A stretch of 64,000 bases of DNA, taken from Lactonifactor longoviformis DSM 17459 (GTDB lineage Bacteria; Bacillota; Clostridia; Lachnospirales; Lachnospiraceae). The notes under the pieces are model-generated. The model had not been told where the DNA came from. It searched no databases and was given only the letters and a program-made list of their open reading frames with translations. This document shows positions 44,003-64,000 of this stretch, one piece after another. The stretch is taken from NCBI RefSeq assembly GCF_900129135.1, contig NZ_FQVI01000021.1, positions 1-64,000 on the forward strand, in the 5' to 3' direction. A program made the position numbers and the translations under genes. Positions within the stretch are counted from its first letter, which is position 1. The number at the start of each line of letters is the position of its first letter.

Positions 44003-45415
44003 CTACTTTTTCCTTAGTTTTACTTTAATCTGCAGATACACTTTCCCAATAACATCTCTAAAAACATAAATTGTGGCAAAAACACCAACTGCAAACGCTA
44101 CCAGATTTCCTATATACGATAGTTTTATATAAACAAAAGTAACACCTGCGGTCAAAATGGTAAACATACCTATAAACCTCATGTCCATTTTGACCCGAAT
44201 CTCTTTTGATAAGATCCGAATACGAATAATTACATTTATTAAAAATCCTAAAAATAAGGCTATACTTGCTCCCTGAACACCTAAAACAGGCAGCAACAAG
44301 TGCACACATATTACATTAACAATGCTTCCCACTACAGTTGTAAAAAATAATATATCATTCTTTTTGATGGCACTAAATATATTGCCCAAAAACGAACTAG
44401 TAGATGAGGCTATGGTAGCCAATAAATATATGGGCACCATATTTTTTGCTTCATTGTAGGAGTCATCGATCATGATAGGGAAAACAAAAAACACAACCGG
44501 AACCAGCAAAATCAATCCCATCCCTAAAAACTGTATAAAAGAGTTAATTGCAACAGAATAAAAATTACTGTTATCGCTATCCGAAGTCGCCTCCTTGGAA
44601 TAGGAAATTTCCTGCCACGCCATATTAAAACACGATGTAAAGAGATTAATAACCGATCCAAATCTTGTTGCTACAGCGTAAAGCCCGTTAGCTTCCTTTC
44701 CCAAAATATTTGAAATAGCAACTCGATTATAACTTGTTAAAAACCAATAAGCTACTGAGTTCATACATAAAGGAATAGAAAATCTGAACATTTGCTTAAA
44801 TATGCCATAGTCAAACTTCTTAACTGATATTAATTCATGAGCACGTATGCCATAGCCTACGATAGCAATATTCACCATATAGCCAATACATCCTGATATA
44901 AACATGGCACTATAATTCATTTTAAACACAACAATCAGTATAATATTGCTAACTGTTGTGACTAAGGTGCCGATAAGACCTGAGGATGCATAGAGTACAT
45001 TCTTACCAAAGCCTCTTGCTAAGTATCCAAATAAAATTTGTGTGTTCATTAATAAGCCAAATAAATAAATGTAAAACAAATATGGAATATGAGCGACACA
45101 CCCTACACCAATTATAATAGCCGTGTACACAGCAGTTGATAACAAGAAAATAGCAAACCCACTATTTATAGGCTTCTTTTTCTTTTCTCTCGTATCATGT
45201 TCAAACATAAAACGCATAATCCCTGCCCAAATATCCAGATAGAGTACAGAGCAGAGAAACGTAATATACGCAGAGGCAAGATCATAAGTTCCCATGTCTT
45301 CCGGGGAGATATATTTTGTATATATTGGCAGCATTAAAAATGAAACCAATTTTATTAAAACAGTACCAATAAAGTAAATACCAGATGCTTTTAGAAATCT
45401 AATTAGCTCTTTCAT
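44003..45415 (-). CDS. wzx: Oligosaccharide flippase (Wzx)
   Basis: 470 residues, twelve to fourteen helices, MOP superfamily: GTVLIKLVSFLMLPIYTKYISPEDMGTYDLASAYITFL at the N-terminus, then RFSIPLCMNSVAYWFLTSYNRVAISNILGKEANGLYAVATRFG. Moves lipid-linked repeat units outward. ATGA-type overlap with the licD stop (45412-45415). Confidence 0.92.
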   Translation of the reverse strand: MKELIRFLKASGIYFIGTVLIKLVSFLMLPIYTKYISPEDMGTYDLASAYITFLCSVLYLDIWAGIMRFMFEHDTREKKKKPINSGFAIFLLSTAVYTAIIIGVGCVAHIPYLFYIYLFGLLMNTQILFGYLARGFGKNVLYASSGLIGTLVTTVSNIILIVVFKMNYSAMFISGCIGYMVNIAIVGYGIRAHELISVKKFDYGIFKQMFRFSIPLCMNSVAYWFLTSYNRVAISNILGKEANGLYAVATRFGSVINLFTSCFNMAWQEISYSKEATSDSDNSNFYSVAINSFIQFLGMGLILLVPVVFFVFPIMIDDSYNEAKNMVPIYLLATIASSTSSFLGNIFSAIKKNDILFFTTVVGSIVNVICVHLLLPVLGVQGASIALFLGFLINVIIRIRILSKEIRVKMDMRFIGMFTILTAGVTFVYIKLSYIGNLVAFAVGVFATIYVFRDVIGKVYLQIKVKLRKK

Positions 45416-46260
45416 TCGTTTAGACCTTCAATTTTATTACGCCACCAAGCTTTAAAATTATGGTGAGATGTCCGTTCAGCCATGGGAGGCAGCGTCATGT
45501 AATCCCCATATTCCCTTCTAAGGAATTCATCATAACCTACAGGGGCCTGTAACATATGCCCCTCAAATTCTAATTTAACCCTTTTTGAGACTACCCATGC
45601 AGGCATCATCACCTCTTCGCGATAGGTTCCTTCCAGGCACCCAACATATAACGCACCATCTACCGCATATTTGCTGCTGTAATAATCCTGCAGTCTCAGA
45701 ATATTTTTACTTCCAACCATCTTTCTAACGAAAAAAGTAATATATCTTCTCGGTTTTCCTTCTGCAAATCTCCTATGAAACGTAGAAAACTTTCGGAAAG
45801 AAGGAGCTCTTTGTCTGTCTAAAAATAGACACTTTTTCAGATGGCGCTGATATTTTTTATCCCCAGGCCCTTTGCCGGGCAATCCGTCGTAAGGAAATAT
45901 ATCAATATATATCCCCATCATACATTGCACGTCCAAATCGGTTTCCAGCAGACAAGTCCTAGTATCTACAACTTTTGCAAATGAGTAGATATAATTGTCT
46001 TTATTCTTTCTATTGATTACCTGATAGGGAGAATGCTGGTCATTATTTATAATATCAACTATCTTATTGTAATCATCTCTGGGCATCCAGATATCAATAT
46101 CATCGTCCCACGGGATAAAACCTTTATGCCTTACTGCACCCAGAAGTGTGCCATCCGACATAAAATAGTACAGATGATTCCTCTCACAAACAGCATCAAC
46201 ATACAGCAGTATATCCAGTGCTATTTGCTGTATCTCTGATACTTCATATATCTCCTGCAT
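45412..46260 (-). CDS. licD: LicD-family phosphotransferase (phosphocholine or polyol-phosphate)
   Basis: First gene of the second polymer operon. Start ATG at 46260 (MQEIYEV); an in-frame ATG 21 bases upstream would fall almost on the expected transcription start. Core LicD motif YFMSDGTLLGAVRHKGFIPWDDDIDIWMPRDDY (about 35-67), where the DDDID is the metal site. 282 residues. In pneumococcus LicD enzymes put phosphocholine from CDP-choline on teichoic-acid sugars. The choline genes at 58855 and 63691 suggest the same here, though the family also handles ribitol phosphate. Confidence 0.85.
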   Translation of the reverse strand: MQEIYEVSEIQQIALDILLYVDAVCERNHLYYFMSDGTLLGAVRHKGFIPWDDDIDIWMPRDDYNKIVDIINNDQHSPYQVINRKNKDNYIYSFAKVVDTRTCLLETDLDVQCMMGIYIDIFPYDGLPGKGPGDKKYQRHLKKCLFLDRQRAPSFRKFSTFHRRFAEGKPRRYITFFVRKMVGSKNILRLQDYYSSKYAVDGALYVGCLEGTYREEVMMPAWVVSKRVKLEFEGHMLQAPVGYDEFLRREYGDYMTLPPMAERTSHHNFKAWWRNKIEGLNE

Positions 46261-46292
46261 ATTTATTCCACAGCCTTTCATAATCTTTTGCT

Positions 46293-52319: not shown

Positions 52320-53284
52320 AGAGTAGAGAAATCCGCAAAAGTTATCTCCCTCTCATTGAACCGTACATACGGGTCTCGTATACGGCTCTACAACTTATAT
52401 TCCAACATTTCTTAGATAATAATTTAAAGGATTGAGCAAACCAGCTCCGTCCTTTATTTTATTTTCAAGCATATCCGGACTTATAATGAAATTCACTACA
52501 TTCATTCCGCTTTGTCTGTACCAACCAAGCCTTGTATTTGCTACTTTATATATAGCTTCGTGGTCAAATCCATTCTTATTCTTTTGATTGAGATAGCTTA
52601 GGTTTCTATATATTGTCTTGGGCGTTTTCCATTGTTTTATCACAATCACTCTTATCTTGTGCCTAAGCCATGCCCCAAACTCTTCCATAAACTGTTTCAT
52701 CATTCCTATTCTAAAGTAATTAATCCAGCCTCTGACTATTTCATTCACTCGCTTTATTGTTTCTGCAAGCGGTCGTGCAACAGCTTTATTTCTTTTGAGG
52801 CATTCACTTAATTTCTGTTTTAACTTCTTTTTCTTTTCCGCGGTAGGTTTTACTTTCGATTCGCCACCATTTTTCAGAAATGTGATTCCGAGATATTTAC
52901 TCCTTGTAGGTCTGACTACTTTGGTTTTTGTGGCATTTACTTTTAGGAACAGTTTTCTCTCTATCCAGTCTGTGATGGATTTCATTACTCTGTTGGCTGC
53001 CATTTCACTTTTTGTGAATATCATTGTATCATCTGCGTACCTTGTAAATCGAAGTCCTCTTTGCTCCAGTTCCTTGTCTAATTTATCAAGATACACATTA
53101 GAAAGTATAACTGAAAGCGGTCCTCCCTGTGGCACGCCAGTCCTTGTTGCTTCTTCCAGCCCTTTCTCCATTACTCCTGCTTTCAGATATTTCCTAATCA
53201 GGTTTAATGTGGTGCTGTCATTCACTTGCTCTCTAAGAATTTGAATTAACTTATCGTGATTTACTTTATCAAAGAATCCCGTTC
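52320..53284 (-). mobile_element. 5'-truncated group II intron with RT remnant and domains V-VI
   Basis: On the minus strand the fragment begins abruptly at about 53284 inside the RT gene (reading GFFDKVNHDKL) and ends near 52320. Domain V is seen at about 52358-52388 (GAGCCGTA pairing with TACGGTTC). Domain VI (AGAGGGAGA pairing with TCTCT-A-CTCT, with a bulged A as branch point) lies just before the 3' end CTCTAT. Loss of the 5' half without the 3' end is what incomplete reverse transcription at integration leaves. It abuts the SMR gene stop by about 7 bases. Confidence 0.85.
52395..53284 (-). pseudogene. ltrA: Group II intron reverse transcriptase/maturase, 5'-truncated
   Basis: The open part covers the second half of the RT: GFFDKVNHDKLIQIL, TGVPQGGPLSVILSNVYLDKLDKEL, catalytic FTRYADDTMIF, KTKVVRPTRSKYLGITFLKNGG, then the maturase (X) domain (INYFRIGMMKQFMEEFGAWLRHKIR) to the natural end RNVGI. 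RT blocks before FFD, including most of the fingers and the start codon, are missing, so it cannot make a full enzyme. Confidence 0.88.
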
Positions 53285-53291
53285 ACTATCA

Positions 53292-53633
53292 CTAAGGTAA
53301 TGTGTAAATCACAATACCTGCAATTATTATTAGATTTCCAACTAATTTTCCTCTGTTTATCTTTTCTTTCAGCACCCCGACCGACAGCAATAAAACAAAT
53401 ACATAGGTAAATGCATCTATCACAGGTCCATATTTCATTTCAACCTGTGTATATGCATATGTATTTGTAAGCAAAACCGCAAAAAATATACCGTATGCAA
53501 CCACTACCCGCCAATTTAAATATTCAAATATAGGATGTTTGTAAGTTCTGTTCGCACTCTGTTTCAACAGTACCTGAGAGATTGCCGAAAAAAAAGTGCA
53601 CCCAAACATTAAAAGCATAAATAATCTATTCAT
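53292..53633 (-). CDS. SMR/EamA-type flippase subunit, second of pair (ArnF-like)
   Basis: About 113 residues from the ATG at 53633 (MNRLFML), behind GGTGG. Four helices; FSAISQVLLKQSANR, YTQVEMKYGPVIDAFTYVFVLLLSVGVLKEKINRGKLVGNLIIIAGIVIY parallels the first copy at 12147 (FSQVLLKKSAGK, VDFKNGPVVESLGFIFVMVLS). Overlaps its partner by 8 bases. The truncated intron lies immediately behind its stop codon. Confidence 0.78.
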   Translation of the reverse strand: MNRLFMLLMFGCTFFSAISQVLLKQSANRTYKHPIFEYLNWRVVVAYGIFFAVLLTNTYAYTQVEMKYGPVIDAFTYVFVLLLSVGVLKEKINRGKLVGNLIIIAGIVIYTLP

Positions 53634-53976
53634 ATCTCTGCACCACCAATACTCCAATGAATACTACACATATTCCAACTATATTATGTACCGAAAGACT
53701 TTCATGAAAAATGAACACCGCCCAGAGCTGAGACCAGATCAGATATACACTTCTATTGGCATATGCAGTAGACAAATCAAATCTTTTAATTACCTTCTGC
53801 CACGCAATTGCATAGATAAAACAATTTAACACCATTAAAAACAAAAATAAATATAATTTCCAACCATAGATACCGTTATTATTATATTCTATTGATGCCA
53901 GCTTTGAAAAAATACTGGTAAAAGAAAATAACAAGATATTTAAATGCAGCAATATATATTTTTTAATTCTTTCCAT
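53626..53976 (-). CDS. SMR/EamA-type flippase subunit, first of pair (ArnE-like)
   Basis: 116 residues from the ATG at 53976 (MERIKKY), set by GGAGGAACAT. Four helices with QKVIKRFDLSTAYANRSVYLIWSQLWAVFIFHE and a C-terminal NIVGICVVFIGVLVV. Same length and motifs as 12475-12825. With its partner it should flip the lipid-linked sugar made by the divergent GtrB-like enzyme. Confidence 0.78.
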   Translation of the reverse strand: MERIKKYILLHLNILLFSFTSIFSKLASIEYNNNGIYGWKLYLFLFLMVLNCFIYAIAWQKVIKRFDLSTAYANRSVYLIWSQLWAVFIFHESLSVHNIVGICVVFIGVLVVQRYE

Positions 53977-53993
53977 ATGTTCCTCCATTGATA

Positions 53994-54024
53994 CTTTTAG
54001 GTATCGAAAGATGTCGCCTAAAAG
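53994..54024. repeat. Inverted repeat in the leader of the SMR pair
   Basis: Arms CTTTTAGG and CCTAAAAG (8 bp, exact) around a 15-base loop, between the minus-strand promoter and the GGAGG site. It could be a leader hairpin affecting translation; no known riboswitch is recognised. Confidence 0.4.
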
Positions 54025-54040
54025 CATGGGCATACCTGTG

Positions 54041-54069
54041 ATTATAACATTCTTTTATACTTTCAGCAA
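54041..54069 (-). promoter_or_regulatory. Sigma-A-type promoter for the SMR pair
   Basis: On the minus strand TTGCTG, a 17-bp spacer, TATAAT. Back to back with the plus-strand promoter at 54091, so the two halves of the cassette may be co-regulated. Confidence 0.6.
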
Positions 54070-54090
54070 CCTTGCTCTGATCTTTTAGCA

Positions 54091-54119
54091 TTGACCCCAT
54101 CTCCAAAAAGTCGTATAAT
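54091..54119 (+). promoter_or_regulatory. Sigma-A-type promoter for gtrB-like/PLP/ATP-grasp operon
   Basis: TTGACC (54091-54096), a 17-bp spacer, TATAAT (54114-54119). Leader of about 40 bases to the ATG with AAGGAGG. Confidence 0.75.
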
Positions 54120-54162
54120 GTTTTAAAATGTCTTTATCAAGCTATATAAAAAGGAGGCTATT

Positions 54163-55092
54163 ATGAGTTTATATTCGGTCGTTGTACCAGTATATAATTC
54201 TGAGCATACACTGGACGAGCTTTACGGGCGTCTCCGCAAAGTTTTCGATGAAACAATGAAAGAACCCTTTGAATTAATTCTGGTAGACGACAGCTCCAGA
54301 GATAATTCTTATGACAAAATGCAGATGCTTCACCAGAAAGATCACCGGGTTAAAATTATACAGATGGCTAAGAATTTTGGTCAGCATCCCGCATTGCTAT
54401 GTGGCTTTCACTACGCAACAGGAGATTATGTTATCACTATGGACGATGATCTTCAGCACCCGCCGGAAGAGATACCGAAACTGGCAGCCGTGATTAAGGA
54501 ACGCTCTGACGTTGATGTCATTATTGCTAAATATGAGGGAAGAAAGCATAACGTTATCCGCCGTCTCGGTACCCGCGTGTCTGTGTACGCAACCTCTAAA
54601 ATGCTTAACAAGGATCCGAACCTGGAAATCACCAGCTTTCGGCTGATGCGGAAATTTATTGTAGATGCCATCCTGCAGATGAATGTAAGACTGCCTCAGA
54701 TAGGTAATCTTTTAGTGCAGACATCCAATCGGATTATCAATGTTACAGTTCATCACGACGAGAGAAAGTACGGAAAGAGCGGTTATACCTTCCGAAGGCT
54801 CATGCGGGATTTGATTTACGATATTACCACTCATTCCGCACTGCCCCTGATCATAGTACGTGATATTGGAATCATCAGTTTCTTTGCAAGTATACTTCTC
54901 GGTATTTTCTATCTCGTCCGATACTTCGTGTACGGCGTATCCGTAGAAGGCTTTACGACTCTCGTGCTTTTACTGGTAGCTTATTCCGGACTATCTTTGC
55001 TTGGCATCGGTGTTATTGGGCAATATCTCATGAATATCCTTAATGAATCAAGAAAAATGCCTAACTATATTGAGCGAAGGAAGGAATTATAA
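54163..55092 (+). CDS. Polyprenyl-phosphate glycosyltransferase, GtrB/DPM1-like, second copy
   Basis: 309 residues. YSVVVPVYNSEHTLDELYGRL, LVDDSSRDNSYDKM, MAKNFGQHPALLCGFHYATGDYVITMDDDLQHPPEEI and IIAKYEGRKHN form the GT2 core; HHDERKYGKSGYTFRRL precedes two membrane helices. Close in plan to 14389-15345. The operon with a second PLP enzyme and an ATP-grasp ligase, and the nearby WecE gene, make a 4-amino sugar a likely load instead of glucose. Confidence 0.88.
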   Translation: MSLYSVVVPVYNSEHTLDELYGRLRKVFDETMKEPFELILVDDSSRDNSYDKMQMLHQKDHRVKIIQMAKNFGQHPALLCGFHYATGDYVITMDDDLQHPPEEIPKLAAVIKERSDVDVIIAKYEGRKHNVIRRLGTRVSVYATSKMLNKDPNLEITSFRLMRKFIVDAILQMNVRLPQIGNLLVQTSNRIINVTVHHDERKYGKSGYTFRRLMRDLIYDITTHSALPLIIVRDIGIISFFASILLGIFYLVRYFVYGVSVEGFTTLVLLLVAYSGLSLLGIGVIGQYLMNILNESRKMPNYIERRKEL

Positions 55093-55099
55093 TGGTACT

Positions 55100-56071
55100 A
55101 TGAAGGAAATTGGTGGATACCTTGAATTAGAAGAGCTGGCCGGGGAAGAATATTATAAAGACATGTATCGCCTGAATTTGGGCAGGACAGCCCTGCTGTA
55201 CCTATGCCGGCTTAGGGGATGCAAAAAGCTTATACTTCCCTATTTCCTGTGTGATTCTGTAATAGAGTCCTGCAGACAAGAGGGAATAGCCATAGAATAT
55301 TATCATATAGACAGAAATTTAATCCCTCAGGTACCGGATGCCCTGGAGTCCGGAGCTTACCTTTATCTGGTGAATTACTATGGTCAGCTAACAGATAAAT
55401 CTATTCTATATTATAAGAAGAAATACAAGCATATTATCGTTGATCATACTCATGCATTTTTCCAACGCCCCCTTCCCGGGGTAGATACTATATACTCCTG
55501 CCGAAAATTCTTTGGGCTTCCTGACGGAGCTTATCTGTCTACAGACGCATCCCCAGTACTTCCCCTATCCCAGGATCTGTCCGGCAGCCGCATGGAACAT
55601 CTTCTGGGACGATATGAAAAAGATGCCGCCTCCTACTATAGCACAATGTTAAACAATGCATCCTCTTTTCAGCAGGAGTCTCCGAAGTTAATGTCCCGTC
55701 TTACTCAGAACTTATTGAAAGGCATTGATTATGAGCGCATCATAGAACGGCGGGAAATTAACTACCGTCGTCTGGATAAATATCTTGGGGACAGGAATCC
55801 ACTGCCTTTTCAGATGCCCAGAGGACCTTTTACTTATCCCTTTTATTATCCTAAGGGCATAGAGCTTAGAAAATTAACTGCCTCCTGTAAGCTTTACCTT
55901 CCAACCTATTGGAATAACGTAATTCAGCACGCAGCAGCTGAAAGTGTTGAATATGACTATGCATCTAATATCCTTCCCCTTCCCTGTGATCAAAGATATA
56001 GCCCACGGGATATGGATGCAGTGGCTGAAAGATTATTTGCTGCAATCAAAGATTTGGAGAGAGAAAAATGA
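55100..56071 (+). CDS. PLP-dependent aminotransferase-fold protein, substrate unknown
   Basis: About 324 residues from the ATG at 55100 (MKEIGGYLEL); AAGGA lies 14 bases upstream, rather far. It resembles a short DegT-type enzyme: NLGRTALLYLCRLRGCKKLILPYFLCDSV, VNYYGQ, IIVDHTHAFFQ (Asp and His by the cofactor) and IYSCRKFFGLPDGAYL with a candidate Schiff-base Lys. The C-terminal half is divergent. It overlaps the ATP-grasp gene by 4 bases, so the two act together. A role in making or activating the amino sugar or its acyl group is inferred. Confidence 0.65.
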   Translation: MKEIGGYLELEELAGEEYYKDMYRLNLGRTALLYLCRLRGCKKLILPYFLCDSVIESCRQEGIAIEYYHIDRNLIPQVPDALESGAYLYLVNYYGQLTDKSILYYKKKYKHIIVDHTHAFFQRPLPGVDTIYSCRKFFGLPDGAYLSTDASPVLPLSQDLSGSRMEHLLGRYEKDAASYYSTMLNNASSFQQESPKLMSRLTQNLLKGIDYERIIERREINYRRLDKYLGDRNPLPFQMPRGPFTYPFYYPKGIELRKLTASCKLYLPTYWNNVIQHAAAESVEYDYASNILPLPCDQRYSPRDMDAVAERLFAAIKDLEREK

Positions 56072-57324
56072 GACATCGGCTGCTAATATTAGGATCCCTG
56101 ACTGAATTCGTGCTTATTACCCGTATGGCAAAAGAGCGGGGTTTCTTTACCGTCGTGTGCGATGCAAATGAGAATGGGCCCGCTAAGGCATTTGCAGATC
56201 GCGCATATCATATTAATGTAGAAAAGACAGATGAGATAGCAGTTATCTGCAAAAAGGAAAAGATAGACGGGATAATCACTTCATTTTCCGATCGCCTTTT
56301 TGAGTGTATGGTAAAAATTGCTGCCAAAGCAGAACTAAAATGTTATCTAACCCCTGATAAACTGGATTATTACCGGAACAAAATTATTATGAAAGATATG
56401 CTAACACAGCTGAAAATCAGTACTCCCAGCTATCGAAATCTAAGACCGGATTTCCAGCTTCATGATTTAGAGGATATACAATTTCCTGTGGTTGCAAAAC
56501 CTGTAGATAAATATGGTTCCAGGGGGATCTACGTATTGAATCAGCCGGAGGAAATCCGCCGGTATTTCCATGATATATGTAAAACTTCTGAAATCAAAGA
56601 AATTCTAATTGAAGAATACAATCCGGGCTACGAATTTAATATGATGTCCTGGGTATTGGATGGAAAAGTACATGTACTCAGCATTGCAGACCGGGAAAAA
56701 ACAGAGATAGAACCCGGCAGAATCCCAATCAGCACCCGCAACGTATATCCCTCCCGCTTAATGGAAGATGTATATGCTGAAGCGAGTACTATCCTTCAGA
56801 AGGTTGCGTCCTATACTCAGCAAAAAGAGGGGGCTCTCTCTATGCAGTTTTTCTGGAGACCTGGTGAGCCGGTTCAGGTCTGTGAGATCGCCGGACGATT
56901 TTTCGGCTATGAGCATGAATTAGTAGAATACAGCAGTGGTCTATCCATTGAGAAGCTTCTCTTAGACTATGTCTATGACGAACCTTCTCTTAGAAGAGAC
57001 TTGTCTGCGCACTCCCCCTGGTTCTCCCGCTGCAGTGCTGTCTTATATTTTCATGGTAGGGAAACTGACATTATGGATGAAAGTGAGGCAGTCAGTCTTT
57101 CCAAAGAGGAAGATATTGAAAATTCTATCCTTTTCTACAAGGAAGGGGAACGTATATCCCCAGAAAATCCCCGCCCCTACGTGGCCCGGTATTATATAAC
57201 CGGGGATACGCGGGAAGCAGTTGATAAGCGAACAAAAGAAATTTTCCACAAAATGACGATCAAAAATACCGCGGGGGAAGAAGTTTTGTACCGTAACCGA
57301 GTGCCGGAGTATCCGGCAAGATAA
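56068..57324 (+). CDS. ATP-grasp ligase (carbamoyl-phosphate-synthase-like)
   Basis: 418 residues. The N-terminal Rossmann-like part is RLLILGSLTEFVLITRMAKERGFFTVVCDAN, the linker DKLDYYRNKIIMKDMLTQLKISTP, and the ATP-grasp core FPVVAKPVDKYGSRGIYVLNQPEEI, ILIEEYNPGYEFNMMSWVLDG, ALSMQFFWRPGEPVQVCEIAGRFFGYEHEL. The C-terminal 100 residues are the usual lid and tail. Such enzymes join a carboxylate to an amine via an acyl phosphate. The WecE-type amino sugar nearby offers an amine acceptor; attachment of an amino acid is my inference. Convergent with the carboxypeptidase gene. Confidence 0.75.
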   Translation: MRHRLLILGSLTEFVLITRMAKERGFFTVVCDANENGPAKAFADRAYHINVEKTDEIAVICKKEKIDGIITSFSDRLFECMVKIAAKAELKCYLTPDKLDYYRNKIIMKDMLTQLKISTPSYRNLRPDFQLHDLEDIQFPVVAKPVDKYGSRGIYVLNQPEEIRRYFHDICKTSEIKEILIEEYNPGYEFNMMSWVLDGKVHVLSIADREKTEIEPGRIPISTRNVYPSRLMEDVYAEASTILQKVASYTQQKEGALSMQFFWRPGEPVQVCEIAGRFFGYEHELVEYSSGLSIEKLLLDYVYDEPSLRRDLSAHSPWFSRCSAVLYFHGRETDIMDESEAVSLSKEEDIENSILFYKEGERISPENPRPYVARYYITGDTREAVDKRTKEIFHKMTIKNTAGEEVLYRNRVPEYPAR

Positions 57325-58794: not shown

Positions 58795-58828
58795 AAAAAG
58801 GCCGCAGCCTGACAGCTGCCGCCTTTTT
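58795..58828. terminator. Terminator of the choline-kinase fusion gene
   Basis: AAAAAGGC-GCAGC stem with one mismatch on each arm, 6-base loop, T-runs on both strands. 27 bases behind the stop at 58855. Confidence 0.88.
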
Positions 58829-58854: not shown

Positions 58855-60714
58855 TTAGCACTTTTTTACATATGTTAAAACATACTCGTCTCTCTTCTGC
58901 ATCGCGCGTTTCATCCGGTCTATGCCATAGGATCCGAAATCCTCACCCCGAGCCTCTTTTAATATCGTCCATGCACTCCACAAAACATCCTGGCAAATTT
59001 TAAAAATAGCTATTTTCTCTTTTGAAATTTCATCCGGCTGTTTTTGAAAATAATGCTCCAGAAAGAGCTCCTCCTCCAGTGGCTTAAAATCACACTCCGC
59101 CAGATGGGCTGCCAAATCCCACATGGGGTCATTATATCCAGCGTATTCCCAGTCAATAAGGTACATTTTCCCGTTTTTGTCCTTAATAAAATTTTCTGCT
59201 ACCAAATCGTTATGGCAGGGTTTCAGCTCTGTGCCCAGTTCTTCCAGGTGCTCCAAAAGTTCATAGAAAAATTTATCCACAGCCTCAAACCCGTCATAAT
59301 AGACTCCGTTTGCTTCATGGATTTGTTTCTTATATTTTTCATATTCTTCTTTCACACTAAAAGTGCCATACATCTTCATATTTGATTCATGAAGTTCTCT
59401 CAGAATGGCCGTTGTTTTCTTCATGTTCATCTCTAAACGAGCCGTCTTTCCATTTAGTGTTTCGGCCTGTGGAATACACTCTGTAATCTTAATTCCAGTT
59501 TCAACATTACAGTACACCGTAGAAGGATTAATTCCCAGCGCTGATGCTAAGGCCGCATTATGCTGCTCACTCTTTCTGTCTATCATTACATCTGTCCCTG
59601 CACCAGGCATCCGCAAAATATAGCGTTTTCCCTGCACTTTAACAAAAAAGTTGGTATTGGTCATGCCTCCGCCTATGCTGCATTCCTCTATGTCCTCATC
59701 TCTTACAGACATACATACTTTTAATGTTTCTCTGGCATGATTTTCTTTTCGAAGCCTTTCCCTCTTTTTAATTTTGGGATACACTAATTTTTCTGCCTTA
59801 CGGTAAAGCTGGTCGTTTTCAATCACGGTCCATGCCATATCATCAGCCATCACCCCTGTAATCTGATAAATACGGCCAATATTCTCAAGAACATATTCAT
59901 AGTTCAGCAAAGGGTTCTGATTATCCTTGAAGTAATCCAGCATCTTTTCAAATAAAGCATACGATATCTTACTGATGCCTACCAACTCGGCATCAATATG
60001 ATTCATCTGTTTGATATCTTTTGAGATTCTAAAAATCGTATTGTCCGGATTTAGTTCTACGTACGCCTCATCATTAGAATCGCTGGGATTTGTAAGAAGA
60101 ACACAATTTCTGTCAGGACATTCCAGCAATTTGGAAATAGCAGTCTCCTCAAATATCTGATTGGCATCCACCAAAAGAAAATCCTCTTTTATAAATCCTT
60201 TCACCGTACTCAGTGACGCCATAGTTCCGGTCCATTTATACCTGTCATTTACTACCAGATGGACATTCCTACGGTTTTTGAAGTAATTTCTATACTCATC
60301 TTTCTGATATCCAACAACAATATAATAATTCTCTATTCCATGCAGAGACAGGTTTCTCATGATCAGTTCAATCACTGGCAGTCCGTCAATGGTAAGAAGT
60401 CCGATTGGCTTTGTAAAGCACAGATTGATTCCAGCCGCCAGTATCACAGCACTTTTCACAAATGAACTATTCTCTCCAGAATCTAAAATCAGTCTCTCAA
60501 CCTGCTTATTCTCAAGACTATTCTCAAGATATTCCCGCCCTTTTCCAGAGAGACCATATTTTTTATCTTTTTCTATTAGATATCCTTCCCCAACCAATTC
60601 CTTCAAAGAAGAATTAATATTCCCAACGGACATGTTGCAGGCCTTGGCTAAAGCCCTCTGGTTTATAAACCCCAATTTGTTAATATGATAAAGAATATTA
60701 TAATACTTGTGCAT
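58855..60714 (-). CDS. Winged-helix / LicC-like nucleotidyltransferase / LicA-type choline kinase fusion
   Basis: 619 residues. Residues 1-65 form a MarR-like winged helix (INQRALAKACNMSVGNINSSLKELVGEGYLIEKDKKYGLSGKGREYL). Residues 88-315 match LicC-type cytidylyltransferases (SAVILAAG, YYIVVGYQKDEYRNYF, LVDANQIFEETAI), but the phosphate loop reads AAGINLCFTKPIGLL, without the Arg and the PK pair of active enzymes. Residues 345-619 are a complete choline/ethanolamine kinase: GGGMTNTNFFV, YILRMPGAG, KPCHNDLVAENFI (Asp503), LIDWEYAGYNDPMWDLAAHL (Asp521). Promoter 60759-60787 with a palindrome at its start point suggests self-control. Probably makes phosphocholine; the middle domain may be a sensor. 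Confidence 0.85.
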   Translation of the reverse strand: MHKYYNILYHINKLGFINQRALAKACNMSVGNINSSLKELVGEGYLIEKDKKYGLSGKGREYLENSLENKQVERLILDSGENSSFVKSAVILAAGINLCFTKPIGLLTIDGLPVIELIMRNLSLHGIENYYIVVGYQKDEYRNYFKNRRNVHLVVNDRYKWTGTMASLSTVKGFIKEDFLLVDANQIFEETAISKLLECPDRNCVLLTNPSDSNDEAYVELNPDNTIFRISKDIKQMNHIDAELVGISKISYALFEKMLDYFKDNQNPLLNYEYVLENIGRIYQITGVMADDMAWTVIENDQLYRKAEKLVYPKIKKRERLRKENHARETLKVCMSVRDEDIEECSIGGGMTNTNFFVKVQGKRYILRMPGAGTDVMIDRKSEQHNAALASALGINPSTVYCNVETGIKITECIPQAETLNGKTARLEMNMKKTTAILRELHESNMKMYGTFSVKEEYEKYKKQIHEANGVYYDGFEAVDKFFYELLEHLEELGTELKPCHNDLVAENFIKDKNGKMYLIDWEYAGYNDPMWDLAAHLAECDFKPLEEELFLEHYFQKQPDEISKEKIAIFKICQDVLWSAWTILKEARGEDFGSYGIDRMKRAMQKRDEYVLTYVKKC

Positions 60715-60733
60715 AAATAAATCCCCTTTTTAT

Positions 60734-60754
60734 ATAGTTCAATTTTTGAACTAT
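60734..60754. promoter_or_regulatory. Palindromic operator over the transcription start of the fusion gene
   Basis: Perfect arms ATAGTTCAA and TTGAACTAT (9 bp) with a 3-base centre. It begins 5 bases downstream of the -10 box, so a bound protein would block initiation. The winged-helix domain of the downstream product is the obvious candidate ligand. Confidence 0.75.
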
Positions 60755-60758
60755 TGTG

Positions 60759-60787
60759 ATTATATCCGATGAACAGAAGTTTGTCAA
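60759..60787 (-). promoter_or_regulatory. Consensus sigma-A promoter of the choline-kinase fusion gene
   Basis: On the minus strand a perfect TTGACA, 17-bp spacer and perfect TATAAT. Such strength makes sense under a repressor. Confidence 0.88.
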
Positions 60788-61029: not shown

Positions 61030-63345
61030 TCATACTTCCGGGTCGGTGGGATCCCAATTCTGGGAAGCCGGTATTTTCTGTGCCACTGGCTTGTCATAAG
61101 GCCCCGGAATCACATTGTCATATATTTCAACTTTCATCCCTAAAGAACAATTGTCAAAGATCCACTTTGCATCCCTAACTGTCATACGTACACATCCGTG
61201 TGATGCAGGGGATCCAAGGCGATTATATTCCGCAGCCGGCAGACTATAACTATTCGTACCATAACCGGCAACCGAATGGAATAGTATTCCGCCTACAATT
61301 CGTGTACAGTACTGACCATATGACGGTCCCATCAAAACTCCCCACCGCTGTTTTTGACTAGTATAGAAAGTTCCCGTAGGAGTTGGGGTAGCAGGTAACC
61401 CAACGGAGCAAACAAAGGAAATTACAGGAATCGTATACCCAGCTCCACCATCCTGTGCATAAATAGTGATACAGCATCTTTGTCTGTTAATCTTAGCCAT
61501 GTATGGTCCCTTAACTTTGCTTCTCAAATCCTGAACCAGTCCACCGCTGCTGTTAAAGTAGTATTTGTAACCATCAATATACTTCCAGCCTGTAACCATA
61601 TAACCATCCGCGCCCAAGTAAAACCACACTTTACCTTTTCTTACCCATGCGCTCTTAGCCAACTTTCCATTCGAATATTTAAACTGCCACAGACCCGAGT
61701 TCGAGATCCATTGACCGGATGTCTCATATGTAGAATTCGCTAATTTATAATCTGAAACATACTTTCCATTCTCATCTACAAATTTTTGTCCAATCCAACG
61801 ATTTACCGCCATACCACCGCCAGCAGTAAGATAATAATTTCCTACCCACTGGTTTGATACCATAGCTCCTCCGCTGCTTAAATAATACCAAATTCCATCT
61901 ACCTCAATCCAACCAGTGGCCATTGCTCCGCTTGGCCAGCAATAATACCAGTACTTTCCATCCTTGAACCAACCTGTAACCATACCTCCATCGGATTTAA
62001 AATAATACCATGCCTTTCCTATTTGGAGCCAGCCCGTTGCCATTGCTCCGCTGGATTTAAGATAAAACCATACATTTCCTATCTTAACCCAGCCCGTCGC
62101 CATGGCCCCGCTGTCGTATAAATAATACCATGTGCTACCTATCTTCTTCCAACCGGTAGCCATACCTCCGCTTCCATTAAAATAATACCATTTGCCCCCA
62201 ATCTGTTCCCAGCCAGTAGCCATAACACCACTTGGATAGCAATAAAACCAAATATTATTCAGATAAATCCATCCAGTCTTCATAATGCCCTGATTATCAA
62301 AATAATACCATTTGCCCCCTAACTGATACCAGCCTACAGCCATAGCTCCGCCTGGTTTTAGATAATACCAGTTATATCCTTCTTGATACCATTCGCTTTC
62401 CTTCATATAACCGTACTTGCCAAAATAGTATCTTTGTCCATTTATCTCTTCCCACTCGAGCTCGGGATACGTACCGTCCTCATATTGATACCACCAGCCT
62501 CTGTCATTGCGCTGCCATCCTTCTTCAACAGGCACATACTCTTTTATAACTTTCCCAGTCTCATCTGTTATGTACTTTACACCGTCAATCAGCTCACCTT
62601 CCGGCTTTGTCTGTATAGGTGTCCCATCTTCATCTAAGTAATACTTATCTTCACCGATCGTCTGAATCCCGAAGCGTTTTTCTAAGATACCATCTTTATT
62701 AAAATATAACTTCTTTCCGCCGATTTCTTTCCAGGCATCTGTCGCGAGAGTAAAGTCCTCATTAATAAAAACATTCTTCAGTGCAGCCGGACCAGTTCCG
62801 TCATCATAGGAAATCTCCGTCTGAAAACCAACTTTTCCTGGCTCCTGTTTTCCATCTGCTCCAAAGTAGCAGTAGATAGCTTTTTCATCTGCATTCTGTG
62901 TCTTCACCCAGGTACTGCGGGCAGTTTTACCGTCCGGAGTTACAAAGTAATATACCGGTTTTGAAATCTCTCCCTCTTGCTCAAAGCCGATTGCTACATA
63001 TCCCTGAAATTCTGCGGGCAGTTCAGGAAGCTTCTCGCCGGATGGCTGACCCTCCTGATATTCATAAACATTCCACTGGTCAAGCACGTCAGGTTTATTG
63101 CTGTCGCTTGCCTCCAATTTAAACAAATACTTAGGAGCCGCCTTCTCTCCCTCTTTTACTGCCCATATCCATCCGCCGTCTGCCTGATTCCATCCCTCGG
63201 CATACGTTACAGTTTTGGAATTGTCACTCTGCTGTGTACCCAGTTCTGTAGGTACATCTCCTGCAGTCGCTCCCACCGGTACCGGTGGTACTAACATCGT
63301 TGCACTCAGCAATAGCGCCAGCAGCCGCATTCTTCTTTTCTTCAT
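61030..63345 (-). CDS. Secreted L,D-transpeptidase with choline-binding-type repeats
   Basis: 771 residues, GAGGAGG before the ATG. Signal peptide (LLALLLSATMLVPPVPVGATA), an N-terminal domain of about 200 residues, a wall-repeat array of about fifteen units (about 275-600), then a C-terminal YkuD domain: GAGYTIPVISFVCSVG, TPTGTFYTSQK, GGILFHSVAGYG and the active-site SPASHGCVRMTVRDAKWIF. YkuD enzymes form 3-3 peptide cross-links or attach proteins and are blocked by carbapenems. The repeats would hold it on choline-bearing polymers, tying cross-linking to the glycan decoration coded nearby. Confidence 0.93.
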   Translation of the reverse strand: MKKRRMRLLALLLSATMLVPPVPVGATAGDVPTELGTQQSDNSKTVTYAEGWNQADGGWIWAVKEGEKAAPKYLFKLEASDSNKPDVLDQWNVYEYQEGQPSGEKLPELPAEFQGYVAIGFEQEGEISKPVYYFVTPDGKTARSTWVKTQNADEKAIYCYFGADGKQEPGKVGFQTEISYDDGTGPAALKNVFINEDFTLATDAWKEIGGKKLYFNKDGILEKRFGIQTIGEDKYYLDEDGTPIQTKPEGELIDGVKYITDETGKVIKEYVPVEEGWQRNDRGWWYQYEDGTYPELEWEEINGQRYYFGKYGYMKESEWYQEGYNWYYLKPGGAMAVGWYQLGGKWYYFDNQGIMKTGWIYLNNIWFYCYPSGVMATGWEQIGGKWYYFNGSGGMATGWKKIGSTWYYLYDSGAMATGWVKIGNVWFYLKSSGAMATGWLQIGKAWYYFKSDGGMVTGWFKDGKYWYYCWPSGAMATGWIEVDGIWYYLSSGGAMVSNQWVGNYYLTAGGGMAVNRWIGQKFVDENGKYVSDYKLANSTYETSGQWISNSGLWQFKYSNGKLAKSAWVRKGKVWFYLGADGYMVTGWKYIDGYKYYFNSSGGLVQDLRSKVKGPYMAKINRQRCCITIYAQDGGAGYTIPVISFVCSVGLPATPTPTGTFYTSQKQRWGVLMGPSYGQYCTRIVGGILFHSVAGYGTNSYSLPAAEYNRLGSPASHGCVRMTVRDAKWIFDNCSLGMKVEIYDNVIPGPYDKPVAQKIPASQNWDPTDPEV
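61545..62520 (-). repeat. Tandem array of about 60-base coding repeats (choline-binding type)
   Basis: About fifteen units of 19-21 codons of the pattern GW..IG..WYYF.S.GAMATGW in the middle of the L,D-transpeptidase, more regular than the array at 46865-48022. Confidence 0.9.
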
Positions 63346-63440: not shown

Positions 63441-63605
63441 TTAATAGATATATATAATTTACCACTTTTTTCTTCAAAATACAACCAATTCACTCCAAGA
63501 AACAGTCCTGCAGTTATTAAGTTTTCATTAAGCATTGTAACAAAAAAGCCTTATTTTATCCTGGTTTTAAGGAATTGCTAAATGTTCATTTTTTGAATAT
63601 ATTAC

Positions 63606-63634
63606 TTGACAAGCGCACCGGTTTCCTCTACAAT
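63606..63634 (+). promoter_or_regulatory. Near-consensus sigma-A promoter of the licC-like gene
   Basis: TTGACA (63606-63611), a 17-bp spacer, TACAAT (63629-63634). Leader of about 50 bases to the TTG start. The rest of the 345-base gap 63346-63690 shows no gene. Confidence 0.85.
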
Positions 63635-63690: not shown

Positions 63691-64000
63691 TTGACAAAAG
63701 AAACGTTTAATGAATTATATAGAAAAAAGGAGTTTTCCGGGCTGGCTCCCTACAAAGTTGAAAACGCTGTCATTATGGCCGCAGGATTTTCATCCAGGTT
63801 TGCCCCATTATCTGAAGTCTGCCCCAAAGCATTGTTTCCGGTTAAAGGAGAGGTATTAATTGAGCGGCAGATACGGCAGCTTCAGGATGCCGGGATACGG
63901 GATATCTATGTTGTTGTTGGTCACAAAAAAGAGTTATTCTATTATTTAAAAGAAAAATTTGGTGTCTTCATTGTGGAAAATAAGGAATATCAGTCTCGTA
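63691..64000 (+). CDS. licC: LicC-type phosphocholine cytidylyltransferase, N-terminal part (cut by window edge)
   Basis: TTG start at 63691 with AGGAGG 8 bases before it. The visible 103 codons give a leader TKETFNELYRKKEFSGLAPYKVENAV and an intact nucleotidyltransferase loop VIMAAGFSSRFAPLSEVCPKALFPVKGEVLIERQI, then DIYVVVGHKKELFYYLKEKFG. This has the Arg and PK that the fusion protein at 58855 lacks, so it is the likely active CDP-choline-forming enzyme. The rest, possibly with a kinase domain, is outside the window. Confidence 0.82.
   Translation, partial: MTKETFNELYRKKEFSGLAPYKVENAVIMAAGFSSRFAPLSEVCPKALFPVKGEVLIERQIRQLQDAGIRDIYVVVGHKKELFYYLKEKFGVFIVENKEYQSR

Follow-up and report, generated by a model that had tools for sequence, protein, structure and literature searches.

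Decoration of surface polymers with phosphocholine is an important trait at the interface with the host. Near the end of the DNA analysed here (the window, a 64,000-nucleotide stretch from Lactonifactor longoviformis DSM 17459), a choline kinase shares a reading frame with a DNA-binding domain, and the locus raises the question of whether an enzyme of the choline pathway also regulates that pathway. A preliminary description of this DNA had proposed a trigger enzyme: a winged helix that shuts off its own gene, guided by a decayed nucleotidyltransferase domain that senses a choline nucleotide. Our comparison with related genomes favors a self-regulating, NadR-like choline kinase that probably controls both choline uptake and choline activation.

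A three-domain protein with an intact choline kinase

A single open frame of 619 amino acids occupies positions 58855-60714 of the minus strand, with its ATG at 60714 and its stop at 58855. The three domains listed in the preliminary description were readily recovered. The Pfam matches HTH_24 (residues 6-46) and Choline_kinase (residues 346-602) scored above cut-off, and NTP_transf_3 (MobA-like, residues 89-198) reached 25.6 bits, slightly under its 27-bit cut-off. The parts of the gene are as follows.

58855..60714, minus strand: fusion gene, winged helix, degenerate LicC/PntC-type nucleotidyltransferase and LicA-type choline kinase (619 aa; domain matches, structure model)
60505..60714, minus strand: winged helix, residues 1-70 (HTH_24, E 3.9e-8; model)
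59749..60459, minus strand: nucleotidyltransferase domain with lost catalytic loop, residues 86-322 (about; 86-323 by PntC alignment) (PntC 6pd1; Foldseek)
60394..60441, minus strand: former phosphate loop, residues 92-107, LAAGINLCFTKPIGLL (loop alignment, tree set)
58897..59730, minus strand: choline kinase domain, residues 329-606 (LicA 4r77, E 6.6e-67; active-site residue counts)
58801..58819, minus strand: terminator-like hairpin 3' of the fusion gene (terminator/promoter scan)

The terminator-like hairpin suggests that the gene is probably transcribed alone. An AlphaFold2 model of the protein, built from ten aligned members of the family, had a mean pLDDT of 88 and a pTM of 0.74. In this model the winged helix consists of three helices and two short strands followed by a fourth helix, and one long helix (residues 301-335) links the middle domain to the kinase.

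The kinase aligned with pneumococcal LicA in Foldseek at 39% identity (rmsd 2.2-2.7 over 292-294 columns). The available part of PMC4364537 names 15 LicA residues for choline and nucleotide binding, and when their numbering was matched to the fusion protein by our own reading of the alignment to 4r77, 13 of the 15 were identical in all ten aligned members (T352, N355, T419, D503, V505, N508, D521, E523, Y524, E540, W579, W582 and Y596). The other two are LicA Gln31, which is Thr here (T354) and Ser or His in four of the ten aligned members, and Lys45, which is Arg (R368) in all ten. The domain thus has the catalytic and choline-pocket residues of a LicA-type choline kinase. Judged by these residues it is intact, in agreement with the complete kinase motifs noted previously. 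By homology, the protein places a DNA-binding domain within an enzyme of the pathway to be regulated, the arrangement of a trigger enzyme.

The middle domain keeps its fold without the catalytic loop

The preliminary description called the middle domain LicC-like. Among solved nucleotidyltransferases, however, its nearest sequence match is PntC (6pd1, E 7.6e-30) rather than LicC (1jyk, E 4.7e-7). Foldseek superposed the domain on 6pd1_D and 6pd2_A with an rmsd of 1.9 over 240-245 columns. Fold and ligand-side residues are thus held in common with PntC and LicC, but the loop GXG(T/S)RX4-8PK, with its Arg and Lys, is gone. The former phosphate loop is five residues shorter than in relatives; the Arg falls within the deletion and the Lys (Lys25 in PntC) is Ile104. 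The Pro persists, so that the earlier reading of a loop lacking its Arg and PK residues was right for Arg and Lys only. According to PMC6697681, PntC needs Arg15, Lys25 and Lys153, each alanine mutant having less than 10% activity. The metal-binding Asp is also replaced, by Asn185 in the window protein and by Asn in 8 of the 10 aligned members, and is retained in L009 and L010. On the ligand side, the equivalents of PntC Lys153 and Glu196 (K232 and E273) are kept in all ten.

A tree of 97 fusion proteins grouped the window protein with its 14 closest relatives in one clade (support 1.0). The loop Arg and Lys are both absent in 15/15 members of this clade. Outside it, the Lys is kept in 82/82 fusions and the Arg in 78/82. 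From these alignments, loss of the nucleotidyltransferase loop is clade-specific. A separate licC with loop Arg and Lys is present in the window's own locus and in those of L003, L009, L010 and L026. The earlier view of a decayed domain gains comparative backing from the lost loop and the intact licC nearby, and the domain is predicted to be catalytically dead. Among nine full members, mean pairwise identity is 57% in the middle domain, compared with 60% in the kinase and 45% in the winged helix. A domain conserved nearly as well as the kinase, with its ligand-side Lys and Glu kept, resembles a pseudoenzyme sensor, and on this pattern of conservation its decay is not random.

A palindrome at the start point accompanies the winged helix

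Two features lie just upstream of the fusion gene.

60759..60787, minus strand: promoter of the fusion gene, TTGACA-17-TATAAT (promoter scan)
60734..60754, no strand assigned: palindromic candidate operator, 9-3-9, with the core GTTCA-N5-TGAAC at 60737-60751 (palindrome and cross-genome comparison)

The promoter (TTGACA at 60787-60782, 17 nt, TATAAT at 60764-60759) matches the consensus at 12/12 positions and was the sole such match among the 15 promoter-like sites of the scan. The palindrome, ATAGTTCAA-AAA-TTGAACTAT, begins 4 nt past the -10 hexamer and its core 7 nt past it. A perfect promoter with an exact 9-3-9 palindrome at the start point, as described before, is therefore what the sequence holds. 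Within the window, GTTCANNNNNTGAAC had 3 matches at up to one mismatch against 1.97 expected, which is weak on the window alone.

The comparison between genomes was much more informative. An exact GTTCA-N5-TGAAC with an A/T middle was found upstream of the fusion gene in all 14 examined full-fusion genomes (the window's own, ten more and three others). Several of these are closely related and hence not independent (close kin among the relatives are L004, L005, L006 and L011, and L021 and L022), so that the count overstates independence. The 14 include Lachnospiraceae and reach as far as the records named Traorella and Turicibacter, whose proteins are 45% and 42% identical. In 13 of the 14 fusion genes the site begins 6-9 nt past the -10, and the promoters of those genes score 10-12 of 12; the exception is L009, whose site is found upstream of the called -35. 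The L011 promoter had no candidate within 160 nt and was found within 300 nt. About 115 extra bases containing a long inverted repeat (by eye) lie between operator and start codon in L011, upstream of 6001, and are followed by an imperfect second palindrome, GTTCA-N7-TGAAC.

For scope, a phylum-wide draw at E <= 1e-60 matched 1 of 398 genomes, the window's own, and a family draw for close fusion relatives matched 8 of 397, own genome included. Among 16 same-family control genomes without the fusion, 13 were site-free and three had exact sites, five in total; three of those five were examined and all lie inside reading frames. Additional exact sites in G792 (C54) and G793 (C42) are also within reading frames and were treated as chance. 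Taken across genomes, recurrence of the palindrome upstream of this gene is not a chance event.

A natural loss was found in L008 (record named Candidatus Ruminococcus avistercoris). Its protein of 537 aa comprises the middle domain and kinase without the winged helix. Ahead of the gene, the -35, the -10 and the left half-site are kept and resemble those of L007; the right half-site is missing. A search of the L008 genome for the exact site found none, and a search of it for a free-standing winged-helix copy, rated uninformative by the tool, likewise found none. This co-loss is a single event, of the kind that a matched head and operator would predict. Fusion homologues without the operator had been named beforehand as the case that would count against the proposal, and the operator was present in 14/14 genomes. 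The proposal that the palindrome is the operator of the protein's own winged helix therefore has comparative support from both the 14 genomes and L008, and we consider it very likely that the fusion protein binds GTTCA-N5-TGAAC sites.

Sites and probable choline-pathway genes beyond the fusion gene

The following features of the window surround the fusion gene.

45412..46281, minus strand: LicD-like gene (phmmer with the LicD family-annotated protein of L029, E 6.8e-45)
61030..63345, minus strand: choline-binding repeats with an L,D-transpeptidase (YkuD) domain (profile search)
63584..63598, no strand assigned: operator copy with one mismatch, GTTCATTTTTTGAAT, whose start lies 22 nt ahead of the licC -35 (site scan)
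63606..63634, plus strand: licC promoter, TTGACA-17-TACAAT, 11 of 12 (promoter call)
63691..64000, continuing to contig position 64494, plus strand: separate LicC-type nucleotidyltransferase with intact loop (Arg and Lys) (TTG start picked by eye from the ribosome-binding site)

Among the 14 relative loci, a BCCT gene lies directly 3' of the fusion in 7; in the flanks examined, LicC-like genes occur in 4 and relatives of the window's choline-binding-repeat protein in 6.

The window's own genome has seven exact GTTCANNNNNTGAAC places. Three have an A/T-only middle, one at the fusion gene and a pair at ugp. The remaining four comprise three in reading frames of at least 100 aa and one intergenic place (L036). 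The two ugp sites (L050 5508-5581; C35:240507-240580) are 59 bp apart and flank an importer promoter, TTGACA-17-TAAAAT, which in this way carries both site positions, past the -10 and upstream of the -35. The importer parts match UgpA, UgpE and UgpB best, with scores far under the curated cut-offs, and alignment of the binding protein with E. coli UgpB is very distant. M. tuberculosis UgpB binds glycerophosphocholine (PMC7034087), and by analogy glycerophosphocholine uptake is a possible role of the importer. In the L005, L006 and L011 genomes, a second site lies ahead of a LicB-like permease, whose sole solved relative at E <= 0.01 is the LicB entry 7b0k (E 2.2e-33).

An offset of -22/-23 from the called -35 recurs at six sites: the three licB genes, the upstream ugp copy, L009 and, with one mismatch, the window licC. 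Three of these six places are homologous to one another. The promoters there score 8, 8 and 10 of 12 at licB and 8 of 12 at L009, compared with 10-12 at start-point sites. Because the calls at two licB genes and L009 were no better than mononucleotide shuffles, the offset at those three is uncertain; the third licB promoter (10 of 12) was outside the shuffle comparison. No site was seen at this offset at licC of L003 and L026. In the examined flanks of the own-genome BCCT (3) and GDPD (3) genes there was no site at any position, at up to two mismatches with non-A/T middle letters counted.

Proposed mechanism and alternatives

In the mechanism we propose and consider likely, the C-terminal domain would phosphorylate choline, and the N-terminal winged helix, probably as a dimer, would bind GTTCA-N5-TGAAC at its own start point and at choline-uptake genes; in the window's genome it would probably also bind at licC. 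The middle domain would derive from an active cytidylyltransferase. Without the residues that grip the triphosphate of CTP, it would have left the cytidylyltransferase chemistry to the separate LicC. It may persist as a ligand-binding pocket through which the winged helix is informed of phosphocholine or CDP-choline levels. A site that covers the start point would fit repression of the kinase gene, and autorepression is accordingly a likely property of the protein. A pocket without its triphosphate side that keeps its ligand side suggests a gauge of phosphocholine or CDP-choline rather than of CTP. We regard the middle domain as the sensor with about even confidence, and CDP-choline, as opposed to phosphocholine or choline, as its tentative ligand. 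The trigger enzyme put forward earlier survives in its own operator, its intact kinase and a domain that comparison suggests is dead. It was incomplete, since the site also occurs at transporters and, with one mismatch, at licC.

The sensor could instead be the kinase domain, through its choline/ATP occupancy, with the dead nucleotidyltransferase as a spacer or dimer scaffold and the helix and operator acting as proposed. The 13 of 15 LicA active-site residues kept identical (by the residue set in the available part of PMC4364537) and the modeled helix 301-335 that joins the middle domain to the kinase are in its favor. Against it, the middle domain is conserved nearly like the kinase, down to the Lys153 and Glu196 equivalents, and we think this reading plausible yet unlikely.

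A second alternative concerns the sign of regulation. Sites solely upstream of the -35 are compatible with repression, activation or looping. The sign may therefore vary by target, and pure repression may be wrong because such upstream-only sites occur at licB, licC and L009. A position-dependent dual regulator would repress from the start point at its own gene and activate or tune from upstream of the -35 at licB and licC. The two recurring positions (6 to 9 nt past the -10, or -22/-23 from the -35, with both at ugp) fit this idea, as do the lower licB and L009 promoter scores of 8, 8, 10 and 8. The window licC does not fit, since its promoter is strong and its site lies upstream only. In addition, three of the weak promoter calls scored no better than shuffles, which leaves their offset uncertain. 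On balance dual regulation is doubtful, about on a par with sensing by the kinase. A fuller scenario, in which an ancestral helix-LicC-LicA enzyme disabled its LicC loop, kept a CDP-choline gauge, ceded the chemistry to LicC and regulates choline uptake and surface phosphocholine via one palindrome at two promoter positions with opposite effects, is a speculation that we would not expect to hold in every part.

Other readings fare worse. The palindrome might serve another regulator, with the fusion's winged helix targeting DNA elsewhere; this is improbable, given that the site tracks the fusion in 14/14 examined genomes and is broken where the winged helix is lost. It is very improbable that the middle domain retains nucleotidyltransferase activity through a rebuilt loop: its fold and ligand-side residues are kept, as is the metal Asp in L009 and L010, but Arg and Lys are lost in 15/15, the Asp is Asn in 8/10, and the five loci named above have a separate licC with both loop residues. 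Finally, a reading of the palindrome as an mRNA hairpin governing kinase translation, rather than a DNA operator, draws on the window copy (-6.1 kcal/mol, z -2.68) and the L003 copy (-13.1, z -4.53), and was rejected as scarcely credible because just two of four folded copies beat their shuffles (L004 and L010, z -1.13 and -0.85), the sites at ugp (one copy), licB, licC and L009 lie upstream of the called -35 and so would be untranscribed, and the co-loss in L008 is left unexplained.

A wider fusion family in which the loop is mostly intact

With the [Eubacterium] eligens fusion as query at E <= 1e-50, 85 of 397 family genomes were matched, and the matches do not all span three domains. They amount to 92 places, of which 82 were read (30 + 52 loci) and 10 left out; of the 52 further fusions, the tree includes 49 frames of at least 580 aa and omits 3 that were shorter. 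By these matches, the winged helix-nucleotidyltransferase-kinase layout defines a large family, most members of which have an intact loop. The [Eubacterium] eligens protein itself (WP_012740756.1) is like the window fusion in its three domains and an upstream GTTCA half-site, and its locus has LicC and BCCT genes downstream, as in some relatives. Fusions of this type differ in that their catalytic Arg and Lys are intact.

The loop is kept in all 30 fusions closest to [Eubacterium] eligens. Of these, 28 carry a GTTCA half-site no more than 140 nt upstream of the helix codons (20 at exactly -82), against an expectation of about 0.13 per 140 nt. A half-site this common ahead of intact-loop fusions suggests that half-site recognition may predate the loss of activity. 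On the other hand, only 29 of the 52 further, more distant fusions have GTTCA within 170 nt, without a common position, which counts against an older half-site. Three distant fusions checked for it (L027-L029) showed no palindrome at up to one mismatch. The clade of the window protein illustrates with unusual clarity the change of an active domain into a probable sensor within a multi-domain enzyme, and many intact-loop relatives are available for comparison. In a second small subgroup of nucleotidyltransferase-kinase fusions (L174 and L176), the loop Arg is lost and the Lys kept.

Relation to known systems

The closest parallel in design is NadR of Enterobacterales, which has the same order of parts: DNA-binding head, nucleotidyltransferase (an NMN adenylyltransferase in NadR) and kinase (for ribosylnicotinamide). 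NadR acts on the metabolite path that it regulates, and most of its orthologues outside Enterobacterales are without the head (PMC12421817). Head loss in L008 mirrors these headless orthologues. NadR differs in serving NAD rather than choline, and the middle domain of the window fusion is, by prediction, inactive. No NadR family, and none for either of its two enzyme domains, was among all 12 Pfam families and the best 25 of 32 NCBIfam families.

Winged-helix repressors of choline and betaine uptake with choline as an inducer are known in GbsR and OpuAR, which the accessible part of PMC6207618 presents as MarR-type proteins of two domains, in which a choline cage is predicted close to the linker. 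Those are non-enzymes, unlike the window fusion. No GbsR family was among the same 12 of 12 Pfam and best 25 of 32 NCBIfam families, in libraries that may or may not include a GbsR model. Pneumococcal LicA is a stand-alone enzyme, whereas the window kinase carries a DNA-binding head. A fused LicC-LicA enzyme lacking such a head has reportedly been found in Treponema denticola. The global regulator CcpA affects licABC expression in pneumococcus (PMC3198803). Among the matches listed in a search of open-access full text, no description was found of a dedicated, metabolite-sensing lic-pathway regulator fused to its own enzyme. The fusion family is a candidate for this role, and it comes with a predicted binding site, predicted targets and a natural loss mutant.

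Elsewhere in the window, the interval 53292-57324 encodes two EamA half-proteins (one weakly ArnE/F-like), an ArnC/PgfS-like glycosyltransferase, a frame without a family match and an ATP-grasp protein, and relatives of four of these five proteins are found near the fusion in L026. By eye, 52395-53225 on the minus strand resembles a fragment of a group II intron reverse transcriptase.
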